DNA of 36,426 nucleotides from Bacillota bacterium (GTDB taxonomy: Bacteria; Bacillota; UBA4882; UBA8346). The stretch lies in assembly GCA_029776595.1 (NCBI GenBank), contig JAKOSX010000139.1, positions 1 to 36,426 on the forward strand, read 5' to 3'. The notes under the pieces are model-generated. The model saw nothing but the letters and a program-made list of their open reading frames with translations. It was not told where the DNA came from and ran no database searches. The translations under genes were made by a program, and so were the position numbers. Every line of letters begins with the position of its first letter. Position 1 is the stretch's first letter. Positions 3,099 through 36,426 of the stretch are shown here, piece after piece.

Positions 3099-5297
3099 TT
3101 AATAGCGGAATCCGCTTTTCAACGAACGGTTGACGACTTGCATAAAGTCGTTCGGAGCAATGGAACCGTCTCGGTTGCGGACGAACGGTTTCAGCGTCAC
3201 GCTCTTGAAATCTTTGGCAGATAATTTAACGCCTTTGTTGTTCTGTGAATGACTGCCGTTGTAGAAATAATTATTCGCTGAAAGCAGCATATCCGGCAGA
3301 ACATCGGCAGCCCCGGGTTTCGTCCGGAACGAAATATTATTTTTTGCAACAAATTGTGGAGTCGCATTCGGATAGTTTGCAAAATTGAAGTTGGCTCTTC
3401 CGTTATCCACCGACGTCGTGTTTTCGACGATAATCGCCGGATTGCTGTTGCTGGACACTCCGAAGGTCTCATTGTTAAAGGCTAAGCTGTTTCTTAAGAC
3501 ATGTTTGACAGGTAAGCCCTCACCGCCCAGCTTAAATCCGTTGCCGTCGCCCTTGGTCCGGTACCCGTCCGACATTCTCCCGTTGCCGTATGAAATACAG
3601 TTTTCGATAACCACTACACCGATAGGACCGGTCTCCAGCTTGGAATATAAGTCCCAACCGTCATCGCAGTTGTTATAGGCGATACATCCTCTGAAAACGT
3701 TGCCGGGTCCGCAGGTGAGTTTGGCCGCAAATCCGTCGGCGTTATTTTCGGAAGGATCCCGGTTATCAAAGGAAGTACAGTTTAAAATCAGGTTGTTTGC
3801 CGGCCATTTTTCAAAAGGCTCCGTGGCCAGGCCGCTGATCTGCAAACCGGTCTCACCGTTGGCATAGGTCTGCACCAATTCGACGATATTATGGCTTCCG
3901 GAGATCCGAAGGCCGTTACCTGAAGATTTGGTAATATCGATTCCGACGATTTTCCAATAGTCCCCGGCCAAGAATACGCCGTTTGCTTTCTTGCCGAAAT
4001 CAAAGACGGGCTTTTCACCCGGATAGGCCGCCAGGACTTTCAATTTTCCGGGGGCACCGTTATTGCCCCGTTCAATCATGATTGGTGCGGATAATTCGTA
4101 GACCCCGCCCCGCACATAAATGGTCTGTCCGGTTTGGGCAAATTGAACCGCCGAATAAATATCGATGGGATCCGCTTCGGTACCGGCAGCGTTAGCCGTC
4201 CCTTTAGGCGATACATAAATCGGTTCACCGGGTTTCCCGTAATTTTTGAAGGTTACCATATGTCTCAACCGGACCGGTGCCGTACTGGTGATGGTCTCAA
4301 CCGGATCCGGGGTGAGGGTCACGTCAAAACTGTTATTCCCTTTGACCAACACGGTCTGGGTATTCACCGTCTGATTGGCTTCCACCGGATTGTCAAAAAC
4401 CTTCTTGCCGTTATGCAAAACCTCCAAGCGGCCTTTGGCATTCGGCTGCAGACTGAAAGTATAATCCGCCACCGGCGAACCGGCCAACGAAAGGACCGTC
4501 ACCGCCGGTTCGACCGCTTCCGGAGGTTCCGGCAGTCCGGGCTCATCGGTAGCTACATCGGAAAATTTCACTTGAATATCGGATACCGTAATGGAAGCGA
4601 CCCGTGCTGCAAAAAAGCCAACATAAATACGGTCCGGATCCAGTATTTCCAATTGTTTCGGACGATAATAAATCTTTTCAGGCCCGTTGTTGACAGACGC
4701 ATGATAACCGGTATTGGTCTTGCGCAGTTTCAACTCGTAGACCGCAGTCCCGTCATTGGCCGGGCGCTCTCCCATTTTCCACACGTTTTCCATTTTGGCG
4801 CCGGCTCCGGAAGGGTCTTTCACATGATTCCGGAATACCGACTGGATCAGGCCCCGATAGCCACCAACCATCACCATGTTGGACGGAAATACCGTACTGT
4901 CCATATGATTACCGATGGCATCCCGGGCCATAATCCCGAACGCTTCCTGATTGTCGGGGATCGGTTTGGCAAAATAGTTGACTCTTACTTTACCGGAGAT
5001 TTCAAAATTTTTGGAAGAATCCACTTCGATATAATAATAGGAAATGCCGTCATGGGACGAGGCGACTTTGCCTCCGACAACGCTTCCGTCCTTTTCTCCG
5101 GCGATGAGCGTTACCGATTGCGTCGCTTCATCCACGATGACTTTATTCCTGTCTTCCCCAATGGATTGTCCGAAAATAATCGACTTCCACTCAAGATTAG
5201 TCGCTGCTCCCGTCGTTGCCGGAATAAACGTCGCACTGAGAGCGAACACCAGCAACATCAGGATCGGCAACCGCCGAGTCATTTGCACATGGTTCAT
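3099..5297 (-). CDS. Secreted pectate lyase, PL9 family-like (right-handed parallel beta-helix)
   Basis: Signal peptide; N-terminal carbohydrate-binding-like region; GTEADPIDIYSAVQFAQTGQTIYVRGGVYEL...NADGFAAKLTCGPGNVFRGCIAYNNCDDGWDLYSK resembles PL9 pectate lyases. RBS AAGGAGGAG upstream. Confidence 0.85.
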   Translation of the reverse strand: MNHVQMTRRLPILMLLVFALSATFIPATTGAATNLEWKSIIFGQSIGEDRNKVIVDEATQSVTLIAGEKDGSVVGGKVASSHDGISYYYIEVDSSKNFEISGKVRVNYFAKPIPDNQEAFGIMARDAIGNHMDSTVFPSNMVMVGGYRGLIQSVFRNHVKDPSGAGAKMENVWKMGERPANDGTAVYELKLRKTNTGYHASVNNGPEKIYYRPKQLEILDPDRIYVGFFAARVASITVSDIQVKFSDVATDEPGLPEPPEAVEPAVTVLSLAGSPVADYTFSLQPNAKGRLEVLHNGKKVFDNPVEANQTVNTQTVLVKGNNSFDVTLTPDPVETITSTAPVRLRHMVTFKNYGKPGEPIYVSPKGTANAAGTEADPIDIYSAVQFAQTGQTIYVRGGVYELSAPIMIERGNNGAPGKLKVLAAYPGEKPVFDFGKKANGVFLAGDYWKIVGIDITKSSGNGLRISGSHNIVELVQTYANGETGLQISGLATEPFEKWPANNLILNCTSFDNRDPSENNADGFAAKLTCGPGNVFRGCIAYNNCDDGWDLYSKLETGPIGVVVIENCISYGNGRMSDGYRTKGDGNGFKLGGEGLPVKHVLRNSLAFNNETFGVSSNSNPAIIVENTTSVDNGRANFNFANYPNATPQFVAKNNISFRTKPGAADVLPDMLLSANNYFYNGSHSQNNKGVKLSAKDFKSVTLKPFVRNRDGSIAPNDFMQVVNRSLKSGFRY

Positions 5298-5345
5298 TGA
5301 GAGCCTCTCCTCCTTGCTATGTATACGTTTAAATTGACTATTAAT

Positions 5346-5374
5346 ATTATATAACGCATTGTTAAGAAATACAA
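5346..5374 (-). promoter_or_regulatory. Sigma-A-type promoter of the pectate lyase gene
   Basis: Minus strand TTGTAT-N17-TATAAT upstream of the RBS and ATG at 5297. Confidence 0.55.
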
Positions 5375-5401
5375 AATATATTTTTATACTCAGAAAAATA
5401 A

Positions 5402-5614
5402 TTACCCGATATAAACAAATCGCGGTTTTAATTCCCCATCCACTTCAACCTGCTCTTCAAACATAGTTCGGGGCCGCACCCATAGGCCGCCGTCGCCGTA
5501 CAAAGCCCGGTATACAACATATTCCTCCAGCGTCTCACTGTGTTTTGCCACTCCGATCACTTCATATTCTTTGCCTTTGAAATGGCGGTACCGTCCCGGT
5601 TTTAAGGTATCCAT
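5402..5614 (-). CDS. DUF1653 domain protein
   Basis: LKPGRYRHFKGKEYEVIGVAKHSETLEEYVVYRALYGDGGLWVRPRTMFEE is the typical DUF1653 pattern; start chosen after AAAGGGGA. Confidence 0.85.
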   Translation of the reverse strand: MDTLKPGRYRHFKGKEYEVIGVAKHSETLEEYVVYRALYGDGGLWVRPRTMFEEQVEVDGELKPRFVYIG

Positions 5615-5746
5615 CCCCATTCCCCTTTCATATCCTTTTTCTTGGTTTCCAGCAAATAATGGTTGCAAATGTTTTGATCCCGCAAGAAAAGTTGAGTGTA
5701 ACATGGTATAATATCGATACATTATTAAAACTTAAGGTAAATAAGG

Positions 5747-7144
5747 ATGTTTAATGTTCAAAAGAACAAAACGCTTCGTCAGGATATTTTGCGGTTGACC
5801 ATCCCGGTCATCGCCGAGCAAACCTTCATCATCCTGATGGGTGTCATCAACACCATGATGGCCGGCCATATCAGCAAGGAAGCAGCGGCCGCCATCGGCA
5901 TGATCGATTCCCTCAATAATATTTTCATCGCCGCCTTCTCCTCGCTGGCTGTCGGTGGCACTGTCATCGTCGCCCATTATACCGGCAAGTCCGACCGGAT
6001 AGGTGCGGGAGATGCTTCCAAACAAGCCATTTACGGCGGGATCGCTTTGGCTTCCTGCATCGCCATCCTGGCCGGTATCTTCCGTTATCCCCTGATTCAC
6101 CTGTTATACCAGGGCGCAGAACCTGCCGTTCTGACGTTAGCCTTTACATACCTCGAATATACCCTGCCCACTTATCCTTTGATCGCCGTCACCACTATTG
6201 CTTGCGGAGTTCTCCGGGGATCGGGCAACACGAAAGCCCCGGCTCAGGTCATGATCTTCATGAATCTTATCAACGTCATTGCCAGTTATCTATTTATTTT
6301 CGGGCTTCACATTCCGTTTACCCCTATCCGTCTTCCCGGCGGCGGGGTCCGAGGCGCAGCCGTCGGCATCGGTTTAGCCCGGTTCCTTGGCGGAATCATC
6401 TTAATCTTCATCCTCATCCGGGGAACAGCCAACCTGAAGATCGAACACATCTTCCGATTCAAGCCTGACTGGGAAAAATTAAGATCCATTCTGGCCATCG
6501 GCGTTCCGGCCAGCATTGAGTCATTACTCTTCAGTTTGGGAAAACTGATCACCCAAACCTTCATCGTCGCCCTGGGCACAGTGGCCATCGTCGCCAATTC
6601 GGTAGCCAATTCCATCCACGGTCTGATGATGATCCCCGGAAGCGCCCTGGGGATTGCCGCCACCACTCTGGTCGGCCAGCATATGGGACGCCAGGATCCG
6701 AAAGGAGCCACCGTCGCCTTAAGCTATATGAATAGATTGGCCATGCTCGCCCTGTTCCTGTTCAATCTGGCCTTTATACCGATCTATCCGGCTTTAGCCT
6801 CCCTATATACGCCCAGCCGGGAAGTTTCGGTGCTTGCTGCGAATTTGCTGACGGCTACCGCTATTGTCTCTTTCGCTTGGCCTTTCGCTTTCCTCTTGCC
6901 CGCCGGATTAAAGGGGGCCGGAGACGTCCGTTATACTTTAACCGTATCCACGCTCAGCATGTGGCTGTTCCGGATCAGTTTGGGCTATATCCTGTGTATC
7001 CAGCTGAGGATGGGGGCATTAGGCGTCTGGTGCGGCATGTACACCGATTGGTTCATTCGGGGTATCGCCTTTTATATCCGATTGCATAACGGAAAATGGC
7101 AACGACACACTGTCATTAAAAACAGCCGGGCCGTCAAAGCCTGA
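5747..7144 (+). CDS. MATE family efflux transporter
   Basis: 465 aa, multiple hydrophobic helices, LRLTIPVIAEQTFIILMGVINTMMAGHIS ... GVPASIESLLFSLGKLITQTFI, typical MATE. Confidence 0.92.
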   Translation: MFNVQKNKTLRQDILRLTIPVIAEQTFIILMGVINTMMAGHISKEAAAAIGMIDSLNNIFIAAFSSLAVGGTVIVAHYTGKSDRIGAGDASKQAIYGGIALASCIAILAGIFRYPLIHLLYQGAEPAVLTLAFTYLEYTLPTYPLIAVTTIACGVLRGSGNTKAPAQVMIFMNLINVIASYLFIFGLHIPFTPIRLPGGGVRGAAVGIGLARFLGGIILIFILIRGTANLKIEHIFRFKPDWEKLRSILAIGVPASIESLLFSLGKLITQTFIVALGTVAIVANSVANSIHGLMMIPGSALGIAATTLVGQHMGRQDPKGATVALSYMNRLAMLALFLFNLAFIPIYPALASLYTPSREVSVLAANLLTATAIVSFAWPFAFLLPAGLKGAGDVRYTLTVSTLSMWLFRISLGYILCIQLRMGALGVWCGMYTDWFIRGIAFYIRLHNGKWQRHTVIKNSRAVKA

Positions 7145-7205
7145 TTTTTCCTTGACTCTCTCCTATCATCCGCCTACATCCATATCAGACCCAATCAAGA
7201 AAGAA

Positions 7206-7235
7206 AAAAGCTATCTCCTGCAGGAGATAGCTTTT
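7206..7235. terminator. Bidirectional rho-independent terminator
   Basis: Perfect 15+15 palindrome AAAAGCTATCTCCTG/CAGGAGATAGCTTTT between convergent genes (MATE + and kdgK -). Confidence 0.85.
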
Positions 7236-7248
7236 AATTTAAGAAAGC

Positions 7249-8361
7249 TTACCGGTCAACCCGGGCGCTTCCGCCACCCATGACTTTTTCCACTTCTTTT
7301 AAGCTGGCCATTGAGGTGTCACCCGGAGTGGTCATCGCCAAAGCGCCGTGAGCAGCACCATAGTTAACCGCTTTCTCCGGATCACCGGTGGTAATCAATC
7401 CGTAAATCAAGCCGGAAGCGAAGCTGTCGCCGCCGCCAACCCGGTCCATAATCTCCAAGCCATTGTATTCTTTAGCTTTGTAAATTTGGCCGTCAGCCCA
7501 GCACATGGCGCTCCAGTCATTGATGGTGGCGGTCCGGACCGTCCGGAGGGTGGTAGCCACCACTTTGAAGTTGGGATAAGTCTTCACAACTTCATTAATC
7601 ATCTTCTTGTACCCTTCGATATTCAGCTCTTTCAATTGAGCGTCATTGCCTTCAACCTCAAAGCCGAGGCAAGCGGTGAAGTCCTCTTCGTTTCCGATCA
7701 TAACATCGATGTATTTGGCGATCTCTTTGTTGACTTCCTGGGCTCTCGCCTGGCCACCAATGGCCTTCCACAAAGAAGGACGATAGTTCAGGTCGTAAGA
7801 AACGATGGTGCCGTATTGTTTAGCCTTTTGAACGGCTTCCAACACCACTTCCGGAGTGGTATCAGAGAGAGCGGCAAAAATACCGCCGGTATGGAACCAA
7901 CGGGTACCCAAAGTACCGAAGATGTAATCCCAGTCGATATCGCCTTTCTTCAATTGAGAAGCAGCGGTATTGGCCCGGTCGGAAACGCCGAGAGCACCGC
8001 GGATACCGAAACCTCTTTCGGTGAAGTTCAAACCGTTACGAACCGTACGGCCGATGCCGTCATAAGGCACCCACTTAATGAGAGACGTGTCAACGCCACC
8101 TTGCATGATGAAATCTTCGATCAAGCGACCGACTTCATTGTCGGCAAAAGCAGTAACAACGGCTACATCCATGCCAAAGCATTTCTTGAGTCCGCGGGAG
8201 ACGTTATATTCTCCGCCGCCTTCCCAAGCTCTGAAGTAACGGGCGGTTTTAATCCGGCCTTCACCGGGATCCAACCGCAGCATAACTTCACCCAGGGAGA
8301 TACAGTCATACTTGCACTGTGATTTTGGTTTAACGTTCAAATTGACGATGGCCACAGCCAT
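7249..8361 (-). CDS. kdgK: 2-keto-3-deoxygluconate kinase, PfkB family
   Basis: LGEVMLRLDPGEGRIKTARYFRAWEGGGEYNVSRGL ... IVSYDLNYRPSLW ... GNEEDF ... DRVGGGDSFASGLIYGL (PfkB signature). Start near AAAGGAGG: ATG 8361, or GTG 8355 with better RBS spacing. Confidence 0.85.
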   Translation of the reverse strand: MAVAIVNLNVKPKSQCKYDCISLGEVMLRLDPGEGRIKTARYFRAWEGGGEYNVSRGLKKCFGMDVAVVTAFADNEVGRLIEDFIMQGGVDTSLIKWVPYDGIGRTVRNGLNFTERGFGIRGALGVSDRANTAASQLKKGDIDWDYIFGTLGTRWFHTGGIFAALSDTTPEVVLEAVQKAKQYGTIVSYDLNYRPSLWKAIGGQARAQEVNKEIAKYIDVMIGNEEDFTACLGFEVEGNDAQLKELNIEGYKKMINEVVKTYPNFKVVATTLRTVRTATINDWSAMCWADGQIYKAKEYNGLEIMDRVGGGDSFASGLIYGLITTGDPEKAVNYGAAHGALAMTTPGDTSMASLKEVEKVMGGGSARVDR

Positions 8362-8536
8362 AACCTCCTTTAGATTTTTTATAGAATGTGTTTTTAACCA
8401 CACTTTAATGACAATATAATGAACGCTCACGATCGGTCCGGTATACAGTTCACAGCACATAGTCAATGAAGACTTTACTTTGCGGCCTTTTTTCCTCTTG
8501 ATTAATTAACTGTCAACTGTCAACCAGGCCCTCGAC

Positions 8537-9319
8537 TCACGGCTCATGCCCCATACCTTTGGTATACCCCATCCGTTTCGATATCTCCTGAGCGGTTCGG
8601 ACGACATGGGTTGCAATTTCCTCATCCCGGTCAGGATGGATGATCCGTTTGTCTCCCGACACACTGACCGCAGCGATGACTTTCCCGGTGTAATCATAAA
8701 TCGGTGCCGCAATGCAGCGAATCCCCGGTTCGTGTTCTTCGTTGTCCAATGCCCATCCGTTGCGAATCACCTGGCAGACGGCTTCTTTCAACTGTTCCGG
8801 AGAACACAGGGTATTAGGAGTAAATGCCTCATATGGGAGTTGGCCGAGGACCTCATTTAAGCGTTCGGGACTCAGTCCCGACAATAACGTTTTGCCGATG
8901 GCCGAACAATGCACCGGAACGCGCCGGCCAATCTGAGAATACATCCGGATGGTATTGACCAGCTCAACCTTTTCGATATATATGACTTCCAGTCCTTCCA
9001 AAATGGCCAAATGCACCGGCTGCCCCACGATTTCGGCCAAGCGACGCATAAAGGGCAACGCTTCGGTCTTCAACTCCAGCTGTTTCAGGAAGAGGCCGCT
9101 GATTTCCATAAATCTTAAGCCAAGTTTGTAAGTATTGTTCCGAGGGTTTTTCTCAATATAACCCCGGTTGGACAAGGCATTGAGCAAACGGTGGACCGTG
9201 CTCTTATGAAGCCCCAACTGTTGTCCGATCTCCGTCACTCCCAGGCCGTCTTTTGACGTAGCTAAGAGTTCAATGACATCGAAGGCCCGTTCCAGGGTCT
9301 GGACTTTTTGATCCGCCAT
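8537..9319 (-). CDS. kdgR: IclR family transcriptional regulator, KdgR-like
   Basis: QTLERAFDVIELLATSKDGLGVTEIGQQLGLHKSTVHRLLNALSNRGYIEKN and C-terminal IclR effector domain; adjacent to a KDG kinase gene. Confidence 0.88.
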   Translation of the reverse strand: MADQKVQTLERAFDVIELLATSKDGLGVTEIGQQLGLHKSTVHRLLNALSNRGYIEKNPRNNTYKLGLRFMEISGLFLKQLELKTEALPFMRRLAEIVGQPVHLAILEGLEVIYIEKVELVNTIRMYSQIGRRVPVHCSAIGKTLLSGLSPERLNEVLGQLPYEAFTPNTLCSPEQLKEAVCQVIRNGWALDNEEHEPGIRCIAAPIYDYTGKVIAAVSVSGDKRIIHPDRDEEIATHVVRTAQEISKRMGYTKGMGHEP

Positions 9320-9330
9320 ACTCCACCTGC

Positions 9331-9356
9331 GTTTCATAATATGAAACAGCGTTTCA
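9331..9356. promoter_or_regulatory. Overlapping inverted repeats, candidate KdgR-like operator
   Basis: gtttcataatatgaaac (8-1-8 perfect, 9331-9347) overlapping tgaaacagcgtttca (6-3-6 perfect, 9342-9356), just upstream of the IclR start; half-sites match the TGAAAC/GTTTCA core of enterobacterial KdgR boxes. Confidence 0.65.
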
Positions 9357-9727
9357 AATCTTCGCAACCATATAAATTATAGCTTTTTTTGGAATGGATG
9401 TCTAGAGTATTTACATTTAGCATGTACCAAAATGCACTTCAGAAGAAATTTGTCCAATTTTTAATTCAGGCTAAGATATTGTTCCAAAACCTATATACGA
9501 AATTATTTTTGTAAATGTTATGAAAATTATCGCATTCAGCCTTTCCCAACAACTACCTCCTTCAAAATCGGCCTAACGGCCTATCGGAGTGAGCTCAATG
9601 AACGAGTCTTTCCCAAAGGGGTTGTTCGGTCAACCCCAACGGTATCGCCCCTGATTCGGAAGGTGCAGGAGGACGAACAGCGCCTTCTGCTGACAAGCAA
9701 AGCATTTCACGTATTTGAAGTATTATG

Positions 9728-18769: not shown

Positions 18770-20083
18770 TCAATTGGTCAACCCGGCAATGGCGGCACCG
18801 ATCAGCGGCGCGTTTTCCAGCGCCTTGATGGTATAATACCGCCCTTTTCCCCGGACCAGATAGTCCCGGAGATAGTACTCAATTTTTTCTTTTAAGGCTT
18901 TCAAATGGTGGAACGTGGTTCCATCGGCCATGATACATACCGGTCGTTCCGGCAACAATCCTTTGCCCGATTGAAGGACGGCCGCCGCAATACTGGCTGC
19001 GGACAATTTCGCCGCCCGGTCCACCAACCGGTCCAATAAATAATAGGCGACCGTGCGGTCTTGCTCCCTGCCGAAGGCGACAATGCTGCCTAAAGTATTT
19101 CCCCCGTTAAATGGGGCAGTTAAAAACTGATTGAGCTCCACCGTGCTGAGATCCTGTAAACCCATGATCGAAGCAGCCACTTTATCGGAGAAGAGGTTTT
19201 CAGCTGCTGCCGTCTGCAACAGCACCCGGCCCAATCCTCCCAAATAACGGCCGGAAATCATCTTCTCAAAAGTGAAAACACCCGGATTACCGGTGGTCCG
19301 GTCGAAAACCAGATCGATATCACCTTGGGGAATCTTGGCGAAACCGCCGGACTCCACGTTGATCAATTGGCTTCCCTCAGGATTCAGCCCCGGTTTTTTC
19401 CCGATATGGGCATTGGATTCGATATAACAGACATTGGTACCGGTCCCCAAGATAAAACCGATGAAACTGTCAAAAACTTCATCCGTCGCTGCAGCTTGTC
19501 CTGCCAATGATACAGCCACCGTGTCATTTAAAACGACCACCTGATAATCCAGGTCTGCACCGTCTTGCTGCAGCGCTTTTTTAAGATTTTCCCCCAACAG
19601 TTCCCCTTCGACTTCCGGCGCTTTAATCTCCTTACTGAACTTGATAACCCGACCGTCTTTGTCAGGCTGTATTTCCACTGAATAGGAAAAACAAAACCCC
19701 ACCTTTGAGCTGGCTTTCCTGATATCAGCCAGATATCTGGCTATCACCCCAAAGAATTGTTCTTTGCCGGTCTCTTCCCCTATCCCGGGCATAGGGTATT
19801 TCCTGAAGTTTTCGATAACCGCCCGGCCGTCATCGTCAAAATAGACGGTGGCCACGCGGAAATTGGTTCCGCCGGCATCCAATACGATGGCTTTTTCATG
19901 ACGCGGCACCTTAAAGGTAACTTCCAAATACGTCGGCAGCATGGCTAATGAGCTTTCCGTTCCGTTTAACCCCCGTTGCATTTCATCCCGAAACATGGTA
20001 CAGACGGTTTCCATCCCTATTGCATCGGGATTCATCCCATGCCTGCTTAAGAAATCATCCATGGATGATTTGAACGATTGCAT
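18770..20083 (-). CDS. Hexokinase, eukaryotic-type hexokinase family
   Basis: KAIVLDAGGTNFRVATVYF (phosphate 1), VGFCFSYSVEIQPDKDGRVIKFSKEIKAPEVEGELLGENLKKAL, VVLNDTVAVSLAGQ, FILGTGTNVCYIE, NVESGGFAKIP, EKMISGRYLGGLGRVLL: classic HK family motifs. RBS AAAGGAGAG. Confidence 0.9.
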   Translation of the reverse strand: MQSFKSSMDDFLSRHGMNPDAIGMETVCTMFRDEMQRGLNGTESSLAMLPTYLEVTFKVPRHEKAIVLDAGGTNFRVATVYFDDDGRAVIENFRKYPMPGIGEETGKEQFFGVIARYLADIRKASSKVGFCFSYSVEIQPDKDGRVIKFSKEIKAPEVEGELLGENLKKALQQDGADLDYQVVVLNDTVAVSLAGQAAATDEVFDSFIGFILGTGTNVCYIESNAHIGKKPGLNPEGSQLINVESGGFAKIPQGDIDLVFDRTTGNPGVFTFEKMISGRYLGGLGRVLLQTAAAENLFSDKVAASIMGLQDLSTVELNQFLTAPFNGGNTLGSIVAFGREQDRTVAYYLLDRLVDRAAKLSAASIAAAVLQSGKGLLPERPVCIMADGTTFHHLKALKEKIEYYLRDYLVRGKGRYYTIKALENAPLIGAAIAGLTN

Positions 20084-25807: not shown

Positions 25808-27244
25808 TTATGGCCGATCCCAAGGATAGTCCAGACCAACTTGAGCCGGATAGTAATAGCCGGAAGTCTGATTGACGATCCCCAGACGATATTGCCGATT
25901 GGAAAGGAGCGGCGGATATTTTCGTTTGGAAGGTATGGGCGAACTGTAAATACGAATCTCCCCTTTAAGTGAGGTAATCACTTCTTCGCGCCAATCACCC
26001 ATACAATCCACAACTAAGACCACATTCCCTTCAATCCGGGTCATCGGCTCTCCGCCCCAGTCTCCGATCTTCCTGCCGCTGACTACCTCTTTTTGAAGAT
26101 CATCGTCCTACCAGACCGGCCTGGGCGAAAGTTCCGTTTTGGCATGAAATTGAACCCAATCACCACGGGCGGTATACATCCACCGTTTCGGATAATCTCG
26201 TTCCCCGCAGTACACTTCCATTCCCGGATATTCCTCCAAGACATCGGCACACATTCCCTGTCCGTGAATGTGATAAGTTTTCTCCGGATGGCCCCATAGT
26301 TTCCGGCCGGTCTTGGCATCCACCACACAGATGCCGTCAGCATCCTGCCGTCTTTCAAACCCGTAAAATATCTCCAGTCCCGGATGGGAGGGATCGATAT
26401 CGGCACAATAGACCACATCCGGATGCCCCATACCTAAAGACCAAAGACCTTTCCCGTCATCATCAATAACTGCCGCTCCGATGACTAATTCATCCCGTCC
26501 GTCTTGATCTACGTCGGCGGCGATCAGTCCATGGGAACCTTGGCCGTAATAATTCCGGCTTTTCACCGGATGCTTTTCCAGAACTTCATGTTTCCATAAA
26601 ATCCGAAAATTCGCATCCAACGCCCAGGTTTTGATGATATTATATGTCCCCCGTTGCATAATTAAGGATGGTTTTTTCCCGTCCAAATAGGCGACGGCCA
26701 ACATATTCCGACTGTATGAATTGTAATCCGGATAACCGGCCCGACTAATCCAAGGGGTTTTGGCAACAACCTTCCCGGTTATACCGTCAATCTTCACCAA
26801 ATACTCCGGTCCGGATTCCACCAGTCCATTGGGGTTCCGCGGATCCCCTTCGCCCGCTTTACAATAGACTTCGGCCCGTCCGTCGCCGTCCAAATCATAG
26901 ACTACCCATGGGGAATACCAGATCCCGGTTTCGATAGCCCAACCCATATCGTATACCCATAACAGACGGCCGTCTTTTTTATAAGCTTCCAATCGATAAG
27001 GAGAAGGACTGGGCTTCCAGTAGCCAGGGTGCTGATAGGGATCGACGTTAAAATTGGGCTGTTTGATAATGAACTCCAGTTCACCGTCGCCATCCAAATC
27101 GCCCAGCCCAATTTTTTGAAAATCATAGGAACCCGCCAAAGGAATGCTATGGTATGGTTTTAATGGCATTTCCGCACTCAATCCCGTCTGCACCCAAACA
27201 AACAAGAGGCCAAATATTCCGGCCAACATCCGCATTTTCACCAT
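25808..27244 (-). pseudogene. Rhamnogalacturonan lyase-like gene (PL11/YesW-type) interrupted by an in-frame TAG at 26108-26110
   Basis: N-terminal part (to 26111) signal peptide plus DLDGDGELEF, DLDGDGRAEVYCK, DVDQDGRDELVIG metal/propeller motifs; after TAG the same frame continues DDDLQKEVVSGRKIGDWGGEPMTRIEGNVVLVVDCMGDWREEVITSLKGEIRIYSSPIPSKRKYPPLLSNRQYRLGIVNQ to a stop at 25808. Confidence 0.85.
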
Positions 27245-27375
27245 CAGTAACGCCTCGCTTGATCCGATTTTACGAATTCGTAACTTTCCGTATGGCGGCA
27301 TCTCATTTCAGATTGAATCCCATTCATTATTTCGGCATCCATTCGCTTTTCCCACAGGTTTTTCAAGCATTTCCA

Positions 27376-33365: not shown

Positions 33366-34517
33366 TCAACCATTTTCGATCAAATCCGCGATTAGTCCGG
33401 CAACCCGGGTCATCACGCCCGGCGGGCCGATCTTTTCCCGAACCTGTTGCAATGCCCGGCGAATCCGGAGATTCACCTCCGGGTCGTACAACATCGTTTG
33501 CAAGGCAGCCCGCACATTCTCCGGTGTTAGGTCTTTTTGCAACACTTCCGGTACCACCGAAGCCCCTGCAATCAAATTGGGCAGCCCAATCCAGGGACGG
33601 ACCACCCGGCGTTCCGGGGATTCCAGCCGTTTGTAGATAAAATAGGATAAACCCGACACCCGGTAGATAATCACCATCGGAACCCCGATGATCGCTGCTT
33701 CCAACGTCGCCGTGCCCGAAGCGATGATGGCCGCATCCGCCGCCGCCATCAGCTCATATACATCGCCGCCGGTGACCGTCACTTTCACCGGATATTGGGA
33801 GAGGATAGACTCCAGCCAATCCCGGTCAATGGAAGTCGCCACCGGCAACACCAATTGCAGAGACGCATCATTCAATCCGGTTATCGTCTCCAACATTACC
33901 GGCAACAGCCTGGCCACTTCCTGCCGTCGGCTTCCCGGCAGCAATGCCACCAATTTTCGTTCCGGATCCAACCCCAGCTTCGCCCGATATTCCAAAGGAG
34001 ACATTCGACTTTGAACCCGGTCGATAAGGGGATGCCCCACGGAGACCACATTCACCCCGAACTTTCGGTAAAAATCAGATTCAAACGGTAACACGGCCAA
34101 CAGCAACCGGACCCGTTCCGCCAATTTTCTGGCCCGATCTTCTCCATACGCCCAAGCGGAAGGAGAAAACATGCAGACCACCGGAATTCCCATCCGCTTC
34201 GCTTCTTTGGCCAGTACCAGGTTGAAACCACCGGAATCCAACCAAATGACGACATCGGGACGATCTTTCTCCCAAAAGGCCACAATTTCCCCGACCAGTT
34301 TCTTTAAGCGCCGTAAATTGCGCAGGGCTTCAAAAAAACCAATGGTGCTTTTGGCTGTCGAATCATAAAGCAGTTGAACGCCTGCAGCCGCCATCCGTCG
34401 GCCTCCGATTCCGGTGAACCGGGCTTCGGGAAGCCTTTTTTGCAATTCTTGGACCAGCACCTCTCCATGCATATCCCCTGAAAACTCACAGGTAGACACA
34501 AAGATATGACGTTTCAT
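33366..34517 (-). CDS. lpxB: Lipid-A-disaccharide synthase
   Basis: FVSTCEFSGDMHGEVLVQELQKRLPEARFTGIGGRRMAAAGVQLLYDSTAKSTIGFFEALRNL ... LLPGSRRQEVARLLPVMLE ... ASGTATLEAAIIGVPMVIIYRVSGLSY. Confidence 0.95.
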   Translation of the reverse strand: MKRHIFVSTCEFSGDMHGEVLVQELQKRLPEARFTGIGGRRMAAAGVQLLYDSTAKSTIGFFEALRNLRRLKKLVGEIVAFWEKDRPDVVIWLDSGGFNLVLAKEAKRMGIPVVCMFSPSAWAYGEDRARKLAERVRLLLAVLPFESDFYRKFGVNVVSVGHPLIDRVQSRMSPLEYRAKLGLDPERKLVALLPGSRRQEVARLLPVMLETITGLNDASLQLVLPVATSIDRDWLESILSQYPVKVTVTGGDVYELMAAADAAIIASGTATLEAAIIGVPMVIIYRVSGLSYFIYKRLESPERRVVRPWIGLPNLIAGASVVPEVLQKDLTPENVRAALQTMLYDPEVNLRIRRALQQVREKIGPPGVMTRVAGLIADLIENG

Positions 34518-34577
34518 CGACGCAACTCCATATGTAACCGTTTTCGATAATATTCTCCTTCGACAACCATTCCCCTT

Positions 34578-35318
34578 CTATGGTGCCATCTCTTCCAAAT
34601 GGATCTCCAGTTGCCCCTGGGTCAACTGCAACCGGGTAATCTTCAGCGGCCAATCCTTCATCACCTCGAAATTCAGCGGAATCTGGGCGGTGATCAGCTT
34701 CACCAAATCACCGGGAACTTCCCGTCCGCCGATAATGACGGACTCCGTAAAAAAACGAACGGTTTTCGGGCCGGAAGCTTCCACCCGTTCCTCGAGGACA
34801 ATATCCGTGGCCCTGCCGAACAGACTTACTTTTCCGGAAATTCGGATCCGTCCCGGAAGAATCACCGTTTTCGGTTGGAATTCGGGATAATTGAGATTTA
34901 AATAATCCGAAAGCGCCGTTTCACTAATGATCCCCTGCACTTGGGTGGCTCCGATCCGTTCGACCCGCAATTGCTTTTCCCGGATAAGCGACGGTAAATC
35001 CAGATCCAGCCATTCATTGTCCACCCGGAGATATTGATAGCGAAGGTCGCTGATGATACAGTTTTTTGCCTCCAGACGGATCCGTTTCACCTTCCCCCGC
35101 ACCACATCCGTCAGCTTGATCCACCCCATCGATGCTTTTAGCTGAAAACCGGCACCGCCGCTCTCGATGAACTGACGGGACAACAGGAAACGGACCCAGA
35201 GATTCATTCCGACTTGCAGCAAAATGACGACAAGAAAAACCCCTGCCACGATCAACAGGGTCCTTCGTTGCTTTGAAAGGCGATACAGCCAGTCCCGCCA
35301 AGCCCCGAAATTTCGCAT
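34578..35318 (-). CDS. DUF2993 (LmeA-like) membrane-anchored lipid-binding-like protein
   Basis: Single N-terminal TM then KASMGWIKLTDVVRGKVKRIRLEAKNCIISDLRYQYLRVDNEWLDLDLPSL ... ALSDYLNLNYPEFQPKTV, typical DUF2993 layout. Confidence 0.7.
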   Translation of the reverse strand: MRNFGAWRDWLYRLSKQRRTLLIVAGVFLVVILLQVGMNLWVRFLLSRQFIESGGAGFQLKASMGWIKLTDVVRGKVKRIRLEAKNCIISDLRYQYLRVDNEWLDLDLPSLIREKQLRVERIGATQVQGIISETALSDYLNLNYPEFQPKTVILPGRIRISGKVSLFGRATDIVLEERVEASGPKTVRFFTESVIIGGREVPGDLVKLITAQIPLNFEVMKDWPLKITRLQLTQGQLEIHLEEMAP

Positions 35319-35398
35319 GGAAACACTCCTTTGTCGTATTTATGCCAAGATTTCAGTGTTTATATGCAATTATCGGTTGCGGGAGCCGCAAGCTGCCA

Positions 35399-36426
35399 TC
35401 ATTTCCCCTTCAATTCCGCGATCTCTTCCTTCAATTGTTCGATGGTTTTCTTCATCGCCCGAAATTCTTTCAACAAATCCGGCAAATGTTGGGCCGCAGC
35501 CTCAACCCTCAATTGTTTGGCATGCGGCCGGGCCGGATCGCCGGAAACAAAGGATTTCGGAGGAAGCGAGTTGGTTACCTTGGAACAACCTGCCACCACT
35601 GAATCATCCCCCACCGTCAAGTGCCCGGCAAGACCGGCTTTACCGGCTAACGTCACCCGATCCCCGGTGATACTGCTGCCGGCCAGACCGGCTTGGCCGC
35701 AAACCAGATTGTCCGCGCCCACTTCGCAGTTATGGCCGACCTGGACCAAATTGTCGATTTTGGTTCCCCGTTTAATCCGGGTCACACCGGTTGTCGCCCG
35801 GTCGATGGTCGTATTGGCACCAATCTCCACGTCATCTTCAACGACAACGATGCCCACTTGCGGCACTTTAAAATGTTTCCCGTCCACAGTGACATATCCG
35901 AAACCATCTGCGCCGATAACCGCTCCGGCATGAATCTCGACCCGGTTGCCGATCTGACAGCCTTCCCGGATCACTACATTCCCATGGATCATTCCGTCTT
36001 CCCCGATGACCACCCCGTCACCGATCCACGCTCCGGCAGCGACAATCGTCCCTTTTCCGATCCGGACATTCTTCCCGATGTATACCAACGGCCCGATCTC
36101 CGCGCCGTCTCCCTGGAACCCTTCACCCACCACGGCGGTTGAATGCACTCCCGGCACACACGGGCGTTTCTCTGTGAAATATGTTAAAAGTTGGGCAAAA
36201 GCCAATTTAGGATTGGCAACCTCAATGGAAGGTTTGGGCAAAGCGCCGGTCCCCAAAGGAACAATCACCGCCGCCGCCGGGCTTCGCAAAGCCTTTTCCA
36301 ACGCAGTTTTATTGCCGCCCAGTGTCAAATCGCCGGGTCTCAAATCATCCACGCCGGCCACGCGGGTAATCTCGGTATTTCCGTCTCCAATCACCGTTCC
36401 ATTGACCACTTGGGCCAATTCCGTCA
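35399..36426 (-). CDS. lpxD: UDP-3-O-acylglucosamine N-acyltransferase; 5' end probably just outside the window
   Basis: Left-handed beta-helix hexapeptides, [54 protein letters not shown]; frame remains open as ...[15 protein letters not shown] to the edge. Confidence 0.93.

Follow-up and report, generated by a model that had tools for sequence, protein, structure and literature searches.

An in-frame amber codon within a PL11-like gene

The window, by which we mean the whole 36,426-nucleotide stretch of DNA analysed, comes from a draft genome of a Bacillota bacterium and carries on its minus strand a PL11-like gene whose frame is broken by a single TAG. The features of this locus are as follows.

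26108..27301, minus strand: upstream ORF, 397 aa as listed, ending ...ELSPRPVW-TAG; it encodes the N-terminal three quarters of a PL11-like beta-propeller protein, as seen from a Pfam match and a fold match to YesW
26108..26110, minus strand: in-frame TAG, codon 380 counted from 27247, placed by homolog comparison
25811..26107, minus strand: in-frame continuation of 99 codons (the tail), encoding the final six strands of the propeller and its C-terminal helix
25808..25810, minus strand: TAA, terminator of the full gene, read from the sequence

The start codon of the upstream ORF is likely an ATG near 27244, followed by a signal peptide. An earlier note on this DNA, made from the sequence alone, had described a TAG splitting a gene with an intact downstream part, and this description proved accurate: past the TAG, the frame runs on for 99 codons without a further stop until the TAA at 25808-25810, and the Pfam domain RGL11_C (PF21348) is matched on both sides. 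The domain spans residues 40-470 of the read-through protein with a score of 287 bits; scored separately, the N-terminal part reaches 232 bits and the tail 45 bits, and the profile positions of the two parts are collinear. This is one continuous RGL11_C gene, cut by a single stop. Judging from these profile matches, homology to the same family running across both sides of the TAG is far beyond chance. The tail includes the stretch VVLVVDCMGDWREEV, downstream of the TAG, and in the multiple alignment it holds the invariant D383, Y464 and a GDWREE block; D381 is also conserved.

Codon 380 is Trp in all readable homologs

A homolog scan of 85,000 species genomes yielded 77 homologous loci. The closest homolog belongs to a sister species ('Bacillota bacterium', JAKOTQ010000003.1; locus L024, contig C110 of G001) and shares 90% amino-acid identity with the window protein. 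The next group, at 58-70%, consists mostly of Phycisphaerae, Sedimentisphaerales and other Planctomycetota, along with two records labelled Omnitrophota. In the multiple alignment, Trp occupies the codon-380 column in 79 of the 79 homologs readable there (26 close, 53 distant), and the stop does fall on a conserved Trp position, as had been proposed. The motif given in that proposal for YesW, VYWDGDLQ, was incorrect, since YesW reads IWWDGDLLRE at this site. Pairwise tblastn gave TGG as the codon in all rows but that of L051 (Armatimonadetes), which is gap-shifted and for which the multiple alignment gives Trp.

In the sister species, codon 380 is TGG by tblastn, and the predicted change from TGG to TAG corresponds to one transition at 26109 (G to A on the coding strand). 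The sister gene is two codons shorter at its 3' end and closes with a TAG of its own. We considered whether this represents a conserved internal amber and rejected the idea, as that TAG is the normal terminator of the sister gene and its position 380 is TGG. Because all 79 readable homologs, the sister species included, carry Trp, the TAG is, by this alignment, private to the present draft genome.

Fold, metal site and substrate-contacting residues

AlphaFold modelled the read-through protein confidently, with a pLDDT of 85 and a pTM of 0.86, and the predicted fold matches that of YesW (2z8r), with a Foldseek TM of 0.83 and 33% identity. In Bo3128, a PL11 protein, the Ca ligands are His376, His412, Asp414 and Glu435, and the substrate residues are Arg467, Lys549 and Tyr610, the last of which stacks on the sugar (PMC8787155). 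The window protein has Ca ligands (H239, H275, D277, E298) at spacing identical to that in Bo3128, and these are kept in essentially all homologs. Y464, in the tail, is the counterpart of the stacking Tyr610. At the position of the substrate-binding Arg, however, the protein has Gln330, found in 27/27 close homologs, whereas Arg is present in 48/53 distant ones. Similarly, the xGTK loop bearing the substrate-binding Lys occurs in 0/27 close homologs versus 47/53 distant ones. The N-terminal beta domain PF18370 was found neither in the window protein nor elsewhere in its own draft, while two control genomes were positive. A literature search gave no YesW residue numbers for the PL11 sites.

The window protein is therefore like PL11 members (YesW, 2Z8R; YesX, 2ZUY; the B. 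licheniformis protein, 4CAG) in its RGL11_C domain, YesW-like propeller, Ca ligands and stacking Tyr, and unlike them in having no PF18370, Gln330 in place of Arg, a deleted Lys loop and, in this copy, a TAG. The label 'rhamnogalacturonan lyase' is weakened, as the close subfamily as a whole has only one of the three residues described as contacting substrate in PL11. Fold and metal site are those of PL11; rhamnogalacturonan lyase activity is uncertain for the subfamily, and its specificity or function is probably altered. The subfamily (window 25811-27247; L024-L048) is made up of the Bacillota sister pair and many Planctomycetota.

By model and alignment, the truncated product is without the last six strands, the C-terminal helix, the GDWREE block and Y464. 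Truncation would hence remove part of the propeller closure as well as the stacking Tyr, and we infer that the truncated protein is inactive.

Genomic neighbourhood

The PL11-like gene is flanked by genes for an Amidase_3 protein and a branched-chain aminotransferase. A pectin-type cluster lies ~17 kb from it.

3099-9367: genes for a PelX/Pel9A-like beta-helix protein, a MatE transporter, a KDG-kinase-like PfkB protein and an IclR regulator

The beta-helix protein scores below the PelX cut-off. Given this separate location, both a functional link between these genes and the PL11-like gene and the suggestion that loss of the latter would alter the degradative phenotype are speculative. Two other observations concern the window at large. 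An LpxB gene (Pfam) lies near a hexapeptide-repeat LpxD-like gene (33366-36424), a pair that, in a Bacillota genome, suggests a diderm envelope with lipid A. The window also encodes a eukaryote-type hexokinase (Hexokinase_1/Hexokinase_2 Pfam domains; 18770-20083) in this bacterial genome.

The tail is as conserved as the body

To gauge the age of the stop, we compared the gene with that of the sister species, for which dN/dS is 0.063 overall and dS is 0.92. dN is 0.044 in the body (codons 30-379) and 0.042 in the tail (codons 381-477). Seven amino-acid differences fall in the tail; polarisation assigns five of them to the sister and the other two to this genome. The codons around the TAG closely match those of the sister. 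If the tail has been unconstrained since the stop arose, these two changes imply that the stop arose within the latest ~6% of this branch (a rough 95% bound). On this comparison, selection on the tail looks undiminished, with no detectable relaxation downstream of the stop. Since dN is about the same in tail and body, the stop is either very young or erroneous, or else the tail is still translated. The lack of decay agrees with the earlier note, which had listed a recent event and a sequencing error among its explanations.

Interrupted genes in the two drafts

For background, we surveyed 522 kb of this 2.05 Mb draft against 1.39 Mb of the sister's 2.7 Mb, which gave 288 ortholog pairs and ~93,000 aligned residues. 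Secure mid-gene nonsense codons numbered two in this genome (the window TAG and one in L188) and one in the sister (contig C73 of G001). The L188 case (L188:7746; G000:C240) is a TAG at a Gln position in a gene for a CT398-like coiled-coil/zinc-ribbon protein; the sister has CAA, and the zinc ribbon is intact downstream. The sister's case, near 11572 of C73, is likewise a TAG at a Gln position, in a gene for a methyl-accepting chemotaxis-receptor-like protein; the codon is CAA in this genome, and the sister's frame is intact downstream. Of the remaining 'mid-gene' stops, most fall in short, probably antisense ORFs and were set aside. Probable frameshifts are about as numerous as nonsense codons, with two in our draft; one probable frameshift, near 24183 of contig C262 of this draft (G000), sits close to the end of a subtilisin-like protease gene whose counterpart in the sister is intact. 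The two genomes are thus alike in how seldom their genes are interrupted, an ordinary background.

All three secure nonsense codons in the two genomes are TAG, and none is common to both species. Codon usage would predict TAG in ~39% of nonsense changes, and hence three of three has a p of ~0.06. This pattern, noticed after the fact, is suggestive at most.

A recent substitution or a draft error

The explanation we consider best, with a probability of roughly two in three (0.66), is that a private, very recent TGG-to-TAG substitution interrupts the gene, which the ancestor shared with the sister species still had in intact form. The substitution would have arisen on this lineage, and the intact RF1 would terminate translation at the TAG. 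The product would be a secreted propeller without its last ~100 residues, probably unfolded or inactive, and the gene would be either a pseudogene in the making or a loss-of-function allele that is still segregating. The finding that all three nonsense codons are TAG was counted against this explanation.

The substitution is taken here to be biological rather than a consensus error. That the real gene is intact, and that the TAG stems from a mistake in the consensus or the binning or from a base call on mixed strains, is a distinctly less probable but serious alternative. It has to be weighed because the draft is fragmented and incomplete (296 contigs, 85.9% complete, 2.5% contamination). The same draft contains the second mid-gene TAG, in the conserved zinc-ribbon protein, and the two probable frameshifts, and a tail without decay is just what an error would leave. 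However, if errors were to account for two nonsense codons in ~93,000 codons, substitution errors would have to occur at ~2-3e-4 per base, a high figure for a consensus built from short reads, and the sister draft shows a similar rate. Because the error reading needs such a high consensus error rate, a real recent mutation is favoured over it.

TAG looks like an ordinary terminator

If the tail is under selection because it is still translated, the genus would have a natural amber suppressor or read TAG part of the time, and both truncated and full-length protein would be made. We regard this as unlikely. In its favour are the three of three nonsense codons that are TAG (two at Gln, one at Trp), with conserved parts downstream, and a report that in-frame stops in genes with dN/dS <1 are widespread in bacteria (PMC7918605). 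Several lines of evidence speak against it. RF1 is intact in our draft (561 bits, over the cut-off, uninterrupted), and TAG terminates 44 of 317 ORFs of at least 150 aa (14%). A CTA anticodon was seen in none of the 23 tRNAs of our draft, where absence of a CUA tRNA is not proven because the draft is 86% complete, and in none of the 43 tRNAs read, of 45 confident ones, in the 99%-complete sister. An anticodon-arm pattern search for CTA gave few matches, and those inside tRNA genes lie off the anticodon. In-frame runs of at least 50 codons past TAG are not significantly commoner than those past TAA or TGA (combined p = 0.15). Finally, no internal TAG common to both species was convincing: judged by eye, the candidates resemble the normal ends of genes or frames on the antisense strand.

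A broader version of this idea is that TAG in conserved genes of the genus (here those for the lyase-like protein, the zinc-ribbon protein and the chemotaxis receptor) is tolerated and lowers the amount of full-length product, owing either to partial readthrough or to an amber suppressor that escaped detection. This seems less probable still.

It is highly improbable that two genes are present and that the C-terminal block has a start of its own: an ATG does lie in frame ~22 codons past the stop, with a purine-rich stretch and GGAG before it, but the restart product would be without a signal peptide and without the start of the conserved block, and all relatives have the block within one unbroken RGL11_C domain rather than in a separate gene, the arrangement that the earlier note had named as contrary to its reading. 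Dedicated recoding of codon 380, by pyrrolysine or otherwise, has next to no likelihood; TAG is the pyrrolysine codon and the downstream frame is intact, but RF1 is present, the relatives carry Trp and no special residue, and no PylS scored above the cut-off in 13 genomes (our own, the sister and 11 further relatives), in a search that put one of 14 control genomes over the cut-off, as expected for a working search. Matches below the cut-off, seen also in most control genomes, are probably class II synthetases.

Collectively, these data argue against the amber recoding that had been listed as a lesser possibility. TAG looks like an ordinary terminator here, with no new genetic code, and recoding or suppression is poorly supported. 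Phase-variable expression, which had also been suggested, was rejected, as the change is a point substitution and no tract or repeat that could switch was noticed.

Relation to known in-frame stops

Belinky et al. 2021 described in-frame stop codons within conserved bacterial genes, most of them short-lived, with carbohydrate metabolism among the commonest categories (PMC7918605). The present gene resembles their cases in having a single nonsense codon while being otherwise intact and under selection. It differs in that the study relied on stops common to at least two species, whereas this TAG is private to one draft.

Two points of caution follow. A striking lone amber in a draft genome can turn out to be ordinary recent gene loss or a draft error once the relatives are read, and automatic 'rhamnogalacturonan lyase' labels in the PL11-like subfamily need testing. 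Were the three-of-three TAG pattern to be upheld across the whole genome, it would be a sign that this uncultured genus of Bacillota suppresses amber codons naturally.
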